Assembly: GCF_002087085.1 (NCBI RefSeq)
Contig: NZ_MWQY01000028.1
Span: 1-43,292 of the forward strand
Length of the DNA: 43,292 bases
Origin: Marispirochaeta aestuarii
GTDB lineage: Bacteria; Spirochaetota; Spirochaetia; JC444; Marispirochaetaceae
Direction: 5' to 3'
Positions 25,251 through 31,913 of this stretch are shown one piece after another. Numbering within the stretch: position 1 is the first letter of the stretch; each line of letters starts with the position of its first letter. The notes below the pieces were generated by a model. The model had not been told where the DNA came from. It did no database searches and worked only from the letters and a program-made list of their open reading frames with translations. The translations under genes and the position numbers were made by a program.

Positions 25251-26705
25251 TTATATCTGAAGCTTGGATATCCTCTCCAGGTACAGGTCCATCTCGAATT
25301 TTCGCTTCAGTCCCTTCGCTCCCATGGGACGGATCTTTCCGAACAGCGGTCGTTCCGGGAAGGGGCGGTCGTGCCTGCCGAAAACCCAGGCGATACCGGT
25401 GTATCCGTTACAGTCCCTGCCGTCGATACTGTAGGTATCGTTCAGTTCGATGAGCAGCCTGTAGGCCTCCCGCCAGTCCGGCATCCACTGAATAAGCCGT
25501 TTTCCCCAGTACATGCGCATATAACCGTGCATCTTTCCGGTAAGCAGGAGTTCCTTCTGTGCTGCGTTCCAGAAGGGGTCGCCGGTCTCCCCTGCGATCA
25601 GCTGCTCCCTGGCGTAGACCTCGGGTCTTTCGTCACCGGCGTGGCTGTCGAGGCTCTCCTGTGCCCAGGCGGGGACGGCATCGGGACTGTCACAGGCCGG
25701 GTTATGCAGACAGAAGTTGATCGCCAGTTCCCGGCGCACAATCAGCTGCTCCAGGAATGCGGCGGCCCCTTCCGTCAGCCGGGGATCATCCCGGGAAGAA
25801 GCCATGACCGCCAGGGCCGCACTTACCGGAGAAAGGTTGCCGAAGTGGAGGTAGGGGGAGAGTTCCGACTGAATATTTAGCCCCGGATCGTTACGGGAAT
25901 CATGATAATGGGAGAGATTCCCGGCGAGAAAATTCTCCAGTCTCTTCCAGGCTTCCCTCTCGCCTCCGGGTACACTCGCAAGAGGTGCTGCTGCCTCTTG
26001 TATGCCGAAGGCAGTCATGTTTTTCAGCACCGATTCCGGTTTTTCCGAATGAAGGGGCCTGAAGGGCAGATCCTTTAATGATTTTCGGGGATTTTTCAAA
26101 TCCGGCAGGGTGCCCACAGGAGCGAGGTAGAGGTCGATAAGGCGGGTGAGCTTCCGCCGCAGGGTCGCGGCGGCATACTCCTCCTTGTCGCTCGCCTGCA
26201 TCGGGGGCACAACAACATCGCTTTCCAGTTGAATCATCGGCCGTGAAAGACTATTGACGATCTCCCGGCGCCATTTTCTTTGTACTGCTGTATAGCCGGT
26301 GTCACAGACCACACAGGCCGCTTCCTTTGCGGCCCGGGGGATCCCTTCCTCCGGATGTGCAAGATCCAGGATAAGAGGTATACCCAGCTTTGCAAGGGAA
26401 GTCTCAAGATCGATCAGACCCTGGAGCAGAAAAGTGAAATGCCGGCTGTTTGCTCCGGGATAGTCCGGCACCAGGCAGAAACAGGCGTAGAGGGGAAGGT
26501 TCATGGTGTTCGCTGTGATGATCGCCGCTGCAAGGGCGTGGTTGTCCCGGACTCTGAGGGCCTGCTGAACCCAGAGAAGGACGAAGCGCGATTTCTGCGG
26601 AGCAGTGCCCGGGCTTATGCGGATTCTGGAACCGAAGATTCTCTTCAGTTCTTCTGTCGGAAGGGACTTCGCGGATGAGGCTACTGCTTTATCTGCGGCA
26701 TTCAT
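25251..26705 (-). CDS. phr: Class II CPD photolyase
   Basis: A 484-residue FAD-dependent enzyme that repairs cyclobutane pyrimidine dimers with blue/UV-A light. The class II signature is clear at the C-terminus: LLTGKMHGYMRMYWGKRLIQW, ELNDTYSIDGRDCNGYTGIA and ERPLFGKIRPMGAKGLKRKF. The N-terminal Rossmann-like domain (RFVLLWVQQALRVRDNHAL, CLVPDYPGANSRHFTFLLQG) is also of the class II type. Its ATG overlaps the TGA of the B12-binding regulator gene by four bases (ATGA), so it is the second gene of an operon whose first product is a probable light sensor. No separate promoter is needed. Confidence 0.95.
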   Translation of the reverse strand: MNAADKAVASSAKSLPTEELKRIFGSRIRISPGTAPQKSRFVLLWVQQALRVRDNHALAAAIITANTMNLPLYACFCLVPDYPGANSRHFTFLLQGLIDLETSLAKLGIPLILDLAHPEEGIPRAAKEAACVVCDTGYTAVQRKWRREIVNSLSRPMIQLESDVVVPPMQASDKEEYAAATLRRKLTRLIDLYLAPVGTLPDLKNPRKSLKDLPFRPLHSEKPESVLKNMTAFGIQEAAAPLASVPGGEREAWKRLENFLAGNLSHYHDSRNDPGLNIQSELSPYLHFGNLSPVSAALAVMASSRDDPRLTEGAAAFLEQLIVRRELAINFCLHNPACDSPDAVPAWAQESLDSHAGDERPEVYAREQLIAGETGDPFWNAAQKELLLTGKMHGYMRMYWGKRLIQWMPDWREAYRLLIELNDTYSIDGRDCNGYTGIAWVFGRHDRPFPERPLFGKIRPMGAKGLKRKFEMDLYLERISKLQI

Positions 26706-27604
26706 GGGCTGTATACCTTATACTGTACAAGCTCTTCGGCAATAAGGAGTCCCTCCGCCAGGGAGCCTGCAACTTTACAGGCGGACAGGTCTTTAAGACC
26801 CTCCCGACCTTCCTCAAAAGCCCTTCCTCCCAGAATAACCGGAATACGGGCAAGCGGTGCTTCCCGGCGCAGCCTGTGGATCAGCAGTTCCCCGGAGTCC
26901 CTGTTTTCGCTGAGGGTGGCGGAGAATGCCAGCAGATCAGGCCGTGCGGAGAGAAGAAGGGATATCAACTGGTCCGTCGGGACCTTGTCTCCCAGAAAAA
27001 ATGCCCGCCAGCCGGCCTGCTCCAGCAGGTCCCGGAGCATCCTGATTCCGATGCTGTGACTCTCTCCCGGAACGGTGGCACAGATGCACAGTTTGTCCGA
27101 TGGCGGAACCCCGGGGTAACAGGTCCGCAGACGCTCCATGAATCCTTCCACGGCGTGGCTGATTATATGCTCCTCCGCTACTGAAATACTGCCTTCGGCC
27201 CAGAGTTCCCCTGTCATGATCAGGAGAGGTTCCAGACTGCGGAGATAGATTTCCTTCATGGGGACACCGGATTTAACTGACCGCTCCACCTTTTCCCAGG
27301 CTTCCAGATCCCTGCCTCCCAGGATTGAGCTGATCATCTCCTTTGGGGAGAGGGGCTTTTCTGGATCTCGTCTTTCAGAATCCGGGATGGCATCTGTGTT
27401 TGCCCGGACTCCCAGTATCCTGTCCAGGGATGCGTCGAAGAGCTCCGCCAGGGCCACGAGTTTCTGCTGGTCCGGAAAACGGCTGTTATTTTCATAGTTG
27501 GCTATGGTTGTCTGTCCTACTCCCAATACCTGGGCAACCTGCTTCTGACTCATTCTGTTTTTTTTGCGGTAGTACCGCAGCCACTGACCGAATTGCTGTT
27601 CCAT
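26702..27604 (-). CDS. XRE-type regulator with cobalamin-binding domain (probable CarH/LitR-like light sensor)
   Basis: A 300-residue transcription factor. Residues 8-63 are an XRE/Cro-CI helix-turn-helix (MSQKQVAQVLGVGQTTIANYE), not the MerR domain usual in CarH/LitR. Residues about 100-165 form the helical half of a B12 module with the W-x9-EH signature (Trp135, Glu145, His146), a hallmark of adenosylcobalamin photoreceptors. The Rossmann half has Glu181-x-His183-x-x-Gly186 (PGESHSIGIRML), with His183 the expected cobalt ligand, then LAFSATLSE and VILGGRAF. The residue after Trp135 is Ala, where Thermus CarH has the His that binds cobalt after photolysis. Coupling to a photolyase gene supports light-controlled DNA repair. 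GGAG precedes the ATG. Confidence 0.9.
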   Translation of the reverse strand: MEQQFGQWLRYYRKKNRMSQKQVAQVLGVGQTTIANYENNSRFPDQQKLVALAELFDASLDRILGVRANTDAIPDSERRDPEKPLSPKEMISSILGGRDLEAWEKVERSVKSGVPMKEIYLRSLEPLLIMTGELWAEGSISVAEEHIISHAVEGFMERLRTCYPGVPPSDKLCICATVPGESHSIGIRMLRDLLEQAGWRAFFLGDKVPTDQLISLLLSARPDLLAFSATLSENRDSGELLIHRLRREAPLARIPVILGGRAFEEGREGLKDLSACKVAGSLAEGLLIAEELVQYKVYSP

Positions 27605-27621
27605 ATAAGCTCCGAAGGATA

Positions 27622-27650
27622 AATTAACACAAAATGTGAAAGAGTGTCAA
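27622..27650 (-). promoter_or_regulatory. Promoter of the B12 regulator / photolyase operon
   Basis: On the minus strand TTGACA (27645-27650) and TTAATT (27622-27627) are 17 bp apart. A short repeat CACA-N3-TGTG (27628-27638) lies in the spacer, a possible autoregulatory site. The same 89-bp region must hold the promoter of the divergent efflux operon. Confidence 0.5.
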
Positions 27651-27693
27651 AAAATATCTTGCTTCATGGCATAATGTAATATATTTTTTTTAT

Positions 27694-28800
27694 ATGGCTT
27701 TGAAGAAAACTCCAGGAATACTTTTTCCGTCTCTGCTGCTGCTCATACTGCTCTCGGGGTGCCGGGGCCGGGACTCGGTATCCGGTGCAACCTGGGTTCC
27801 TGGTACCGGCGAAAATCCATCACCGGCGGTTGAGGTTGTTTCCGTGGAACAGGGAAAACTCTACAACACCATAGGTTCCACCGGGACCGTGCGGGGCAGG
27901 AATGAGGCTCGCATAGTGACCACAAGCCAGGGAATGGTCATGTCTTTTCCGGTGCGTCTTGGTCAGGAGGTCGGGGAAGGAGATGTGATTCTCCGTCTGG
28001 ATGACGAACTGGCCTCCTATGCAGCGGAGCAGGCACGGACAGGGTGGGAGATTGCCAGGGCAGATCTGGAGGTTCTGAGTTCCCTGTATGAGCGGGGAAA
28101 CGCTTCCCGGGTCGATCTGGAACGGGCCAGAAGCAGTGAACGCGGCGCCCGGGCTGCCTATGACCAGAGTCTCAGAATTCTGGAAGACCGAACAGTCCGA
28201 AGCCCCATGAACGGCCATATAATCTGGATTGATGAGAACGCTTCTCCCGGAAACTATCTGAATACCGGCAGCATGATCGCGCTGGTGGCGGATATTTCGG
28301 GTTTTACGATGATACTTGAACTTGGTGAACGACAGATAGGGCTTGTCGGACCCGGGGCCGGAGCGGAAATTCATGTGCAGGCTGCAGGAACGTCGTCCTT
28401 TTCTGGTACAGTGGAGGCAGTGGCGGCAGGAAGCGGCGGTACAACGGCAACGTATCAGGTGGAGCTCTCCTTTTCGGCTCCTTCGGATTCCGGTATTAAA
28501 CCGGGAATGGCCGCCCGGGTTGTGGTGGAAACCAGCCTTGAGAAGGAGGCTCTCCTTGTTCCAGGCATTGCGCTTCTTAAGGGGAGTGAAGAACGTAATG
28601 AGGTATTCTTACTTCGCGACGGATATGCCCGTCTTGTTCCCGTGGAGGTCCTTGACCGGCACGGGGATTTTGCGGCCGTCGGATCCGGTCTGAAAGACGG
28701 GGACCGGGTAATAGTATCAGGAACCCGGCGGCTTATGGACGGAGACCCGGTCAGGGCGACGGAGGTCAGTCTTGTCCGGGAAGGGATGCAGAACAGATGA
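27694..28800 (+). CDS. RND efflux membrane-fusion lipoprotein
   Basis: A 368-residue periplasmic adaptor of an RND pump. The N-terminus is a lipoprotein signal (FPSLLLLILLSGC) with acylated Cys23. The HlyD/MFP layout is seen: first barrel-sandwich strand block (VVSVEQGKLYNTIGSTGTVR, SFPVRLGQEVGEGDVILRLD), a helical hairpin (EQARTGWEIARADLEVLSSL to AYDQSLRILEDRTV), the second sandwich half (RSPMNGHIIWIDENASPGNY), then beta-barrel and membrane-proximal domains (LVPVEVLDRHGDFAAVGSGL). Its stop overlaps the pump gene start (ATGA). No outer-membrane channel gene follows. It diverges from the light-sensor gene across 89 bp. Confidence 0.93.
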   Translation: MALKKTPGILFPSLLLLILLSGCRGRDSVSGATWVPGTGENPSPAVEVVSVEQGKLYNTIGSTGTVRGRNEARIVTTSQGMVMSFPVRLGQEVGEGDVILRLDDELASYAAEQARTGWEIARADLEVLSSLYERGNASRVDLERARSSERGARAAYDQSLRILEDRTVRSPMNGHIIWIDENASPGNYLNTGSMIALVADISGFTMILELGERQIGLVGPGAGAEIHVQAAGTSSFSGTVEAVAAGSGGTTATYQVELSFSAPSDSGIKPGMAARVVVETSLEKEALLVPGIALLKGSEERNEVFLLRDGYARLVPVEVLDRHGDFAAVGSGLKDGDRVIVSGTRRLMDGDPVRATEVSLVREGMQNR

Positions 28801-31800
28801 ACCTGGGATCCTTCTCGGTCAGGAATCACGTCCTGGTGAATATTCTCATGTTTGCCCTGCTGGTGCTGAGTCTTTTAAGTCTCCAGCGCATGCCCAGGGA
28901 GCAGTTCTCAGAGGTACCCTTCTTCTGGGTTACCATAAGCGTACCCTATCCGGGGGCCAGCCCTGAGGATATCGAACGATCTGTCACGATCAAAATTGAA
29001 AATGTGATGCAGGGGCTCAAAAGCCTTAAATCCGTCAGCTCCGTAAGCAGTGAAGGGCTTTCCCGGGTCCGGGTGGAGTTTGAGGACGGAATCGATGCGG
29101 ATGAGTTTGCCCGCCTTTTCCAGGAGACCAGGACACGATTCTCATCAGTGGAGCTTCCCGAGGGGACCCTGGAAGCGCAGCTTGACGATTTTTCCGCGGC
29201 TGATTTTCTACCTGTTATCGAAGTTGTACTCTCGGGCAATGTGGATTACCAGCTTCTCAGCTCTTCCGCAAATGAGCTCGAGGATCTCCTGGAAGGAATC
29301 CCGGAGGTGGCGGAGATTACCTCTGTAGGGTCCCGGGAACGCCGCATCCACGTGGATGTACTGCGGGCGAGCAGCGAGTCCCTGGGAGTCTCTCTCGGGG
29401 AGATTGCCGATACCATAAACGGGGTGAATCTGTCGATTCCGGCGGGTACGGCGTCTACGGCCAACCGTGAGTATATCGTCAGAACCCAGGGGGATACCAC
29501 GGACGTCACGGGAATTTCCGAGCTCGCGATCCACCGGGACTCCTCCGGATTGCAGAGAAGTATCCGGGTCGGTGATCTGGCCGGGGTTTCCGAAGGCTTC
29601 GAAGAATCGGGGATTCAGGCCCGCTTTAACGGACGCCAGGCGATAATCCTGAGGGTGGCCAAGGTAAGCGGGGGTGATTCCGCGGAGCTTGTTTCCGGGG
29701 TCAGAGAAGTGATCTCCCGCTTCAGCCGCTACATTCCCGTGGGAATACAGGTGGATACCTTCGGCGATTCCACGGTACAGATTCGCAACAGCATCGATGT
29801 ATTAAGCAGTAATGCCCTCTTCGGCCTCTTTCTGCTGACGCTGATTCTCTTTCTTTTTGTGGGTCTCAGGAACGCCCTTATTACCGGCCTGGGAATACCT
29901 GTCTCCTTTGCCATTACCCTGATTGTACTGGAGCTCAGCGGGCAGACCATAAATACCAACACCTTGTTCGGTCTGGTTCTGGTCCTGGGGCTGATCGTGG
30001 ACCATGGTATAGTCATAGTGGAAAACTCCTACCGGCTGCAGCAGCAGGGCTTTACGCGGCTGCAGGCGGCGATGAGCGGGGCCAACCAGGTCGTGGGGCC
30101 GGTGCTCGCGGCCACGGGAACGACCGTTGCCGCTTTTCTGCCCCTGATGCTGCTCCCCGGGACAATCGGCAGATTTTTGCGGGTTATACCCTTTACTGTT
30201 TCCGTGGCCCTTATCGCTTCCACCCTGGAGGCGCTGGTTTTTCTTCCCGCCCATTACGCAGAGTGGCCGGGAGGCAGGAAAAAGAAAGCCGGAATTCTTG
30301 CCGGGCCCCTGGAGGGGCTGCAGAGATCTTTTGCCCGGATGCTGGCCTTTCTGTACAAACGGAAAAAACGTACCCTCGCCGGGGCCCTTCTTTTTCTTGT
30401 CGTGTCCTTTTCTCTTGTCCCCTTTATCCGGCAGGACCTTTTCAGCGCCGAGGATTTTTCCCTCTTTTATATCGATATCGAAATGCCCGTCGGGACCCCC
30501 TCCGAGGGGACTTCCGATTTTGTTGTCCGGTACGAGAATCGGATTCTCCCCCTGGTTGGAAACGGTGAAATCACCGGCCTGGCCACATCCGTCGGTTTCC
30601 GGGGCAGCGAGAACGCGAATGCCAGGCAGGGCAACCTGGCCCAGATAATTGTGGACCTGGCGGAGCAGAGGGAAGGCAGGACCCGTCCTATCAGCGTCAT
30701 CATGGGCGAAATCGAGGCCCTCACAGCCGACATCGCCGGCGCAGAGGAGGTGGCGTTTCGTAAGGCGGTTAACGGACCTCCTGTTTCGCCGCCGGTGGGG
30801 TATCGTCTGTTCGGAGATGACTACGGGGAATTGCGTCGGGTCGCCGCCCGTATGCGTGAACGGCTTACGCAGTATCCCGAGCTCTTTAATATCCGGGACA
30901 ATATCGAGGCGGGAACCCCGGAGATGCGGATTGTCGTCAATTCCCATCGGGCCGCTGAATTCGGCATATCTTCAGGCTACGTGGGAAGCTACCTGCGTTC
31001 CGCCCTGGAGGGCATACCGGCGGGAAGTTACTTTATCCGCAACGAGGAGGTCCCGGTTATTGTACGGTATGCGTCGGATGAGGGTGTCAGCGATATAGGC
31101 GCCATCGACGAGATGAAGATCCCCCTTCCATCGGGCGGACAGATTCCCCTCTCTTCCCTGGCGGTCCTCGAGGAGGCGGTGCCTCTGGCTTCCATCAAGC
31201 GTCTTGACGGCAAGCGGGAGGTAAACATAGAGGCCTCCGCCTACGATGAACAGAACATCCGGGAGATCAACCGGGAGATTCGGGAGTATTATGATGCAGA
31301 ACTCAATCCGGAATATCCCGGAGTTGAGCTGAAAGTAGGGGGGGAATTTTCTGATCTGGACGATCTTCTCCTCCAGATCCTGCGGATATTCCTGCTGGGC
31401 ATTTTCCTGATGTACATGATTCTGGGTTCCCAGTTTTCTTCCTATACCCAGCCCTTCCTAATTCTTGTGACTCTTCCCTTTGCCTTCGCGGGGATCATTA
31501 CCTTCCTGGCCGTTTCGGGAACCCCCTTCTCCACAACGGTTCTCTACGCTGCCGTCGCCCTGGCGGGGATTGCCGTTAATGACAGTATTGTGTTGATCAG
31601 CTTCATCAACGAGAACAGGAAAGAGGATGTTCCGGTGATGCAGGCTGTTCTCGATGCAGCGGCGGCGCGGATGAGGCCGATACTCCTGACATCGGTAACC
31701 ACCATTGCGGGACTTCTTCCGGCGGCCCTGGGCATCGGAGGCAGGTCGGTGGTCTGGGCACCCATGGCCAGTACCATTATCTTCGGACTCCTCTTTTCCA

Positions 31801-31913
31801 CCCTGACGGCCCTGGTGGTTATTCCGCTGATCTACGGAATCTTCTACGACCGTCCCGGCAGGATGGATGCCCTCAGGGAATCAGCTCAAAGAGACGCTGA
31901 GACAGAAAGGTAA
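28797..31913 (+). CDS. RND-family efflux pump (AcrB/HAE type)
   Basis: A 1038-residue inner-membrane proton antiporter, normal in length for HAE-RND pumps. It begins with TM1 (SVRNHVLVNILMFALLVLSL) and the porter domain (PYPGASPEDIERSVTIKIEN). TM2-6 lie around residues 335-480, and the second half repeats the plan, with TM7 at about 525-545 and TM8-12 from about 860. The TM4 proton-relay motif reads GLIVDHGIVIVEN: Asp402 is kept but the second Asp of the AcrB DD pair is His403. TM10 reads GIAVNDSIVLISF, with Asn where AcrB has Lys940. Drug, lipid or metal substrate cannot be fixed. Its 3' end overlaps a convergent small membrane protein gene by 41 bp. Confidence 0.93.
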   Translation: MNLGSFSVRNHVLVNILMFALLVLSLLSLQRMPREQFSEVPFFWVTISVPYPGASPEDIERSVTIKIENVMQGLKSLKSVSSVSSEGLSRVRVEFEDGIDADEFARLFQETRTRFSSVELPEGTLEAQLDDFSAADFLPVIEVVLSGNVDYQLLSSSANELEDLLEGIPEVAEITSVGSRERRIHVDVLRASSESLGVSLGEIADTINGVNLSIPAGTASTANREYIVRTQGDTTDVTGISELAIHRDSSGLQRSIRVGDLAGVSEGFEESGIQARFNGRQAIILRVAKVSGGDSAELVSGVREVISRFSRYIPVGIQVDTFGDSTVQIRNSIDVLSSNALFGLFLLTLILFLFVGLRNALITGLGIPVSFAITLIVLELSGQTINTNTLFGLVLVLGLIVDHGIVIVENSYRLQQQGFTRLQAAMSGANQVVGPVLAATGTTVAAFLPLMLLPGTIGRFLRVIPFTVSVALIASTLEALVFLPAHYAEWPGGRKKKAGILAGPLEGLQRSFARMLAFLYKRKKRTLAGALLFLVVSFSLVPFIRQDLFSAEDFSLFYIDIEMPVGTPSEGTSDFVVRYENRILPLVGNGEITGLATSVGFRGSENANARQGNLAQIIVDLAEQREGRTRPISVIMGEIEALTADIAGAEEVAFRKAVNGPPVSPPVGYRLFGDDYGELRRVAARMRERLTQYPELFNIRDNIEAGTPEMRIVVNSHRAAEFGISSGYVGSYLRSALEGIPAGSYFIRNEEVPVIVRYASDEGVSDIGAIDEMKIPLPSGGQIPLSSLAVLEEAVPLASIKRLDGKREVNIEASAYDEQNIREINREIREYYDAELNPEYPGVELKVGGEFSDLDDLLLQILRIFLLGIFLMYMILGSQFSSYTQPFLILVTLPFAFAGIITFLAVSGTPFSTTVLYAAVALAGIAVNDSIVLISFINENRKEDVPVMQAVLDAAAARMRPILLTSVTTIAGLLPAALGIGGRSVVWAPMASTIIFGLLFSTLTALVVIPLIYGIFYDRPGRMDALRESAQRDAETER

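Follow-up and report, generated by a model that had tools for sequence, protein, structure and literature searches.

The window, that is, the whole stretch of 43,292 nucleotides analysed here, comes from Marispirochaeta aestuarii and carries on its reverse strand a gene for a putative cobalamin-binding regulator followed by a photolyase gene. The locus raises the question of whether this regulator is a light sensor comparable to those of the CarH/LitR family, which DNA site it reads, and which genes it controls. The features concerned are listed in Table 1.

Table 1. Features of the regulator-photolyase locus and the adjoining pump genes, in window positions.
Feature	Positions	Strand	Basis
Class II CPD photolyase, 484 aa	25251..26705	-	TIGR00591, PDB 8oet/2xry
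ATGA stop/start overlap of regulator and photolyase	26702..26705	-	sequence
XRE-headed cobalamin-binding regulator, 300 aa	26702..27604	-	ORF; Pfam HTH_3 + B12-binding_2 + B12-binding; AF2 model; Foldseek
Cobalamin-binding domain (CBD): helical cap (residues 90-159) and Rossmann part (173-269)	26798..27337	-	Pfam, VIA-align
GxxxP motif, residues 205-209	26978..26992	-	sequence
ExHxxG motif, residues 181-186; His183 is the predicted lower axial Co ligand	27047..27064	-	sequence
GxxW-x9-EH motif, residues 132-146; Ala136 at the position of TtCarH His132	27167..27211	-	sequence
XRE helix-turn-helix, residues 9-61, recognition helix GQTTIANYE	27422..27580	-	Pfam HTH_3, 9.7e-14
Predicted regulator-phr promoter: -35 TTGACA at 27645-27650, weak -10 at 27622-27628	27622..27650	-	comparison with relatives
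Predicted operator CACATTTTGTG, a CAC-N5-GTG palindrome	27628..27638	-	motif search, promoter counts
Divergent RND pump periplasmic adaptor (MFP)	27694..28800	+	ORF
RND inner-membrane pump	28797..31913	+	ORF; homologues adjoin the regulator in relatives

The three Pfam domains of the regulator are HTH_3 (residues 9-61, above the gathering score), B12-binding_2 (90-159) and B12-binding (173-269). No MerR match was obtained in the Pfam scan, the head being of the HTH_3/XRE type. The AF2 model has a mean pLDDT of 85.8, with low confidence in the linker (about residues 68-80) between the XRE head and the CBD. In the CBD, W135-x9-E145H146 reads WAEGSISVAEEH and E181-x-H183-x-x-G186 reads ESHSIG. 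According to the SignatureFinder study (PMC11796333), the signature of light-responsive CBDs consists of GxxW, EH, GxxH and GxxxP, and all four elements are present in the regulator (G132/W135, E145H146, G180/H183 and G205/P209). The prediction that the regulator is a B12-type light sensor is thereby supported. An earlier sequence-only reading of this DNA had claimed the two CarH/LitR motifs, an XRE head in place of MerR, and an alanine after the tryptophan where TtCarH has its bis-His partner, and all of these are borne out. This alanine, A136, lies immediately C-terminal of W135, and no bis-His partner is present. The absence is not in itself unusual, because in that study the light-responsive CtMerR has Arg, and the photocobilins Gln or Tyr, at this position (PMC11796333).

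Comparison with proteins of known structure places the regulator near the described B12 photoreceptors. Its best PDB sequence match is CtMerR of Chloracidobacterium (8JBS/8JBT; match to 8jbs), described in that study as a proven light-responsive regulator (PMC11796333), which also has the light-type signature and no bis-His partner, but has a MerR head and Arg where the regulator has Ala. The top Foldseek match of the regulator model is full-length TtCarH (5c8d). The VIA-align Z scores are 24.0 for photocobilin 8j2w (rmsd 2.2 over 207 residues), 20.2 for CtMerR 8jbs and 19.1 for TtCarH 5c8e, but they are comparably high for MetH (21.8) and AppA (21.1), and therefore the fold alone cannot separate photoreceptors from MetH and corrinoid proteins. 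The photocobilins (8J2W, 8J2Y) have the structurally closest CBD and likewise no bis-His, but they combine it with a biliverdin-binding globin domain and lack a DNA-binding head. With the CarH/LitR proteins (Thermus CarH; Pseudomonas PplR/PmlR) the regulator shares the layout of head and CBD, the Wx9EH and ExHxxG motifs, the fold, and the placement by photolyase, carotenoid, SDR and FAD oxidoreductase genes. In contrast, those proteins have a MerR head, His after the Trp (in TtCarH) and a CBD clade of their own, while the XRE-CBD family has a short predicted operator, CAC-N5-GTG. The NCBIfam CarH equivalog gave the regulator 50.4 of 400 bits. Since it has no MerR head, no bis-His and a separate CBD clade, the regulator is not a CarH/LitR member; it is best filed as a predicted light-type CBD on an XRE head, probably working like CarH/LitR and having its own predicted operator.

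About 45 XRE-CBD relatives were found in Spirochaetia and Clostridia, the two-part homologues occurring in about 34 of 395 sampled Spirochaetia genomes. HTH_3 and the B12-binding domains were both present in all 38 relatives scanned. G132, W135, E145, H146, H183 and G205 are invariant in the 45 homologues; P209 is kept in 42, and some members have S or A in place of G180. After the Trp, 26 have Glu and eight Ala; none has His. In the CBD tree, the MerR-headed proteins including TtCarH form their own clade (support 100/94). The XRE-headed CBDs lie outside it, within the same light-type superclade (100/100), which is itself apart from MetH and the methyltransferase corrinoid proteins. The XRE-CBD family therefore did not arise through a recent exchange of the CarH head. 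The tree holds three head changes and is compatible with a single origin of the XRE fusion as well as with several. At one locus (L091; 5845-6759 and 8606-9544) B12 regulators of both kinds occur, a MerR-headed one of the LitR type and an XRE-headed one, separated by about 2 kb and a single gene. The genome of the window also encodes a second light-type B12 sensor (L002:1105-3368, G000:C4), which has no DNA-binding head and has a histidine kinase gene immediately after it; relatives of this head-less sensor have GGDEF or kinase genes following them (L014, L016).

The sequence-only reading had described the DNA-binding head as one not known from the CarH family. In the largely open-access literature searched, no description of an XRE-headed B12 photoreceptor was found, and this part of the claim stands; CBDs fused to unspecified HTH domains are, however, already listed in a network in PMC11796333, and its network figures may hold an earlier sighting. 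A B12 regulator beside phr is by itself not new, the MerR-headed LitR of Pseudomonas being already known in that position (PMC9758184).

The ORF downstream of the regulator is, by its sequence matches, a class II photolyase. TIGR00591 (phr2) covers residues 27-479 with an E-value of 2.3e-133 and 445.8 bits, below the curated 550, and the best PDB matches are the class II chains 8oet/2xry at about 315 bits. Most of the tryptophan positions in the aligned class II PDB chain are retained. The similarity to the Methanosarcina class II photolyase 2XRY extends over most of the length; the difference is that the enzyme of the window is translationally coupled to a B12-type regulator. The overlap of the regulator stop with the photolyase start was correctly placed in the sequence-only reading, and it recurs in both other Marispirochaeta-group genomes (L005 and L006, the latter, identical to L017, being Candidatus Marispirochaeta associata). 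Because of this recurrence and of the invariant signature residues in the 45 homologues, the arrangement is not attributable to chance.

Neighbourhoods across the family were judged on stretches of 6-18 kb by longest-ORF calls and tblastn. Class II photolyase is present in 19 of the 34 XRE-CBD spirochaete genomes, and in eight of these 19, from four families, its distance to the regulator is no more than about 6 kb. The probability of such linkage by chance, computed post hoc under an assumed random gene order, is about 1e-14 when counted by genomes and 3e-6 when counted by families. The position of the photolyase varies. In Marispirochaeta it is downstream, inside the regulator operon; in G045 and L098 it closes the divergent pump operon; in G231 and G195 it stands tail-to-tail with the regulator, and in G162 and G228 upstream of it. 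In Proteiniclasticum (Clostridia) it belongs to the divergent operon, where genes for a second B12-binding protein and an FtsX/ABC exporter precede it. The link to photolyase, for which a survey of XRE-B12 genes beside phr had been proposed, is thus stronger than the sequence-only reading could know. The divergent operon of the Proteiniclasticum loci L024, L026 and L031 (e.g. L024:1908-5806) consists of the B12-binding protein, an FtsX/MacB-type permease, an ABC ATPase and the class II photolyase, and its stand-alone B12-binding protein retains EH, with the Trp cap apparently gone.

Other neighbours also recur. Phytoene synthase adjoins the regulator in L074, L075, L078, L079 and L080, and crtI does so in L075; lipocalin and DUF1295 genes are found beside it in L089, L096 and L097, and DUF1295 in L091. 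SnoaL, SDR and FAD oxidoreductase genes lie beside the regulator in L027, a set resembling the light-induced LitR (pmlR1) region of P. mendocina, which contains phrB, SDR and FAD oxidoreductase genes (PMC9758184). The commonest neighbour of XRE-CBD genes is nevertheless an MFP-RND pump, in about 14 loci and mostly divergent. In the window, too, the promoter region is common to the regulator and the pump (27694-31913). The two-gene unit of light sensing and light repair proposed from the sequence is thus upheld in its tight coupling to photolyase and too small in its extent, since the control region is shared with the divergent pump, which across the family is conserved more widely as a neighbour. 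In L066:5685-7742 (G002), the RND pump gene by the regulator was matched piecewise, in overlapping segments and different frames, a possible frameshift or assembly error. Near the edge of the window, an ORF at 439-1623 resembles, by eye, an IS256/mutator-type transposase.

An alternative reading is that the CBD reports the supply of adenosylcobalamin (AdoCbl) rather than light, the photolyase being a passenger. Such a cobalamin-level sensor would agree with a CBD fold common to non-photoreceptors and with a commonest neighbour that is not a light gene. It is nevertheless unlikely, considering that the light-type Trp cap and EH are invariant in all 45 homologues, that photolyase, carotenoid and lipocalin/DUF1295 neighbours recur independently, and that no B12 transport or synthesis genes were seen among the annotated close neighbours of the regulators inspected.

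Regarding cofactor supply, neither a PduO- nor an EutT-type adenosyltransferase was found in the genome of the window (G000), and no CobA-type enzyme was found in the three Marispirochaeta genomes (G000, G001, G002), the profiles used being PF01923 and PF02572. Methylmalonyl-CoA mutase was also not found in the Marispirochaeta genomes. It follows that AdoCbl would have to be either imported, as is perhaps the case, or made by an enzyme that these searches do not recognise. The class II ribonucleotide reductase NrdJ is present in all three genomes, and this type of enzyme is AdoCbl-dependent. Therefore, the cell very probably uses AdoCbl.

The negative adenosyltransferase search is also what a regulator of the RND pump would accommodate if it sensed pump substrates or stress and kept the CBD as a structural element only, as in the B12-independent CarA. 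The pump genes standing divergent from or adjacent to the regulator in those roughly 14 loci fit this as well, and CarA of Myxococcus is known as a paralogue of CarH that works independently of B12 (PMC8156234, PMC9304148). We regard this as quite improbable, because the cobalamin-contacting signature residues are all conserved, including the lower axial His in 45 of 45, and many members have no pump and are accompanied by carotenoid, photolyase or lipid genes.

The site read by the XRE head was sought in the regulator promoters. Among 36 regulator upstream regions searched with no prior motif, the strongest spaced trinucleotide pair is CAC-N5-GTG, found in 15 against 0.42 expected from shuffles. 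It occurs in 22 of 45 regulator promoters versus five of 318 control upstream regions (p about 2e-18, kinship ignored). In the window it lies in the regulator's own promoter, flanked by the -35 and the -10 box, within the interval 27605-27693 that had been proposed for operator mapping. The relatives show the same promoter layout with better -10 boxes, e.g. TTGACA-17-TATTAT in L034; a strict consensus scan of 27400-27800 found no promoter, and the layout in the window rests on comparison with these relatives. Members with the recognition helix QT[TS]IANYE have CAC-N5-GTG, while the QVxIANYER clade is without it and has AAC-N5-GTT in three of ten. The operator letters thus co-vary with the recognition helix. 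At the level of sequence, this is evidence for reading of the predicted operator by the XRE head and for autoregulation of the regulator gene. As a predicted family operator, CAC-N5-GTG is new in this analysis. In two unrelated proteobacterial loci picked up via the recognition-helix pattern, CACN5GTGWTA lies near an XRE-type helix stretch (L035:5951-5964, L036:5950-5963), as if the same helix went with the same site.

The stricter pattern CACN5GTGWTANNNT has three matches in the 4.2-Mb genome of the window (G000), one at this promoter and the other two adjoining signalling-type ORFs. In the genome-wide scan no strict match was found at the crt cluster. Since the reversed strict pattern is about equally frequent genome-wide, a wider regulon is not claimed. 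The carotenoid cluster itself (L162; G000:C2, about 163800-167500) consists of a crtI-like gene, crtB, a membrane protein gene and a second crtI-like gene. No strict copy is present on the pump-side promoter of the window; in L032 and L033 a second, pump-facing copy is found. For a repressor, the classic position is between the two promoter boxes, as here. That the protein is instead a light-dependent activator, or regulates only itself, would suit a clear operator limited to its own promoter, but is highly improbable given this position, the translational coupling of the photolyase and the second copy in L032 and L033.

We thus consider it rather likely that the regulator is an AdoCbl-bound, XRE-headed dark autorepressor that is released by light and controls the regulator-phr operon, probably together with the pump. 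We infer AdoCbl binding, light response, dark repression and pump control from the features above. In the dark, AdoCbl would be bound with His183 below and the adenosyl group capped by Trp135, Glu145 and His146, keeping the CBDs oligomeric; the paired XRE heads would then occupy CAC-N5-GTG and block the regulator-photolyase mRNA, and probably also the divergent RND pump. Through the translational coupling of the two genes, autorepression would amount to repression of phr. Green or blue light would break the Co-C bond, the adenosyl group would depart, the oligomer would loosen without a bis-His state, and the XRE heads would release the DNA, so that photolyase would be produced exactly when light can power repair.

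The release step must differ from that of TtCarH, in which the break-up of the tetramer requires His132 and the H132A variant remains mostly tetrameric in light (PMC10442372), since Ala136 of the regulator corresponds to this variant. CtMerR and the photocobilins are light-responsive without the bis-His histidine (PMC11796333), and by analogy release in the XRE family must presumably proceed either through a step like theirs or through a weaker change that the XRE heads read. The weak -10 box of the window, the failure to find an adenosyltransferase and the non-diagnostic fold count against the light-switch model.

The chances appear about even that these proteins make up a separate B12 photoreceptor family of spirochaetes and clostridia, characterised by an XRE head, a CAC-N5-GTG (or AAC-N5-GTT) operator, release without bis-His and mostly Glu after the Trp, in which efflux pumps are light-controlled besides repair and carotenoid genes. 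As a natural family without the bis-His partner, it provides a way to ask how light leads to release in the absence of the accepted CarH step. If the model is true, the B12 light-sensing domain has been joined to DNA-binding heads of a second class, whose compact operator can be read from the sequence, and a green-light switch of this XRE type with its short operator would be useful in optogenetics. In non-phototrophic spirochaetes and clostridia, light control may then extend from repair to efflux pumps.
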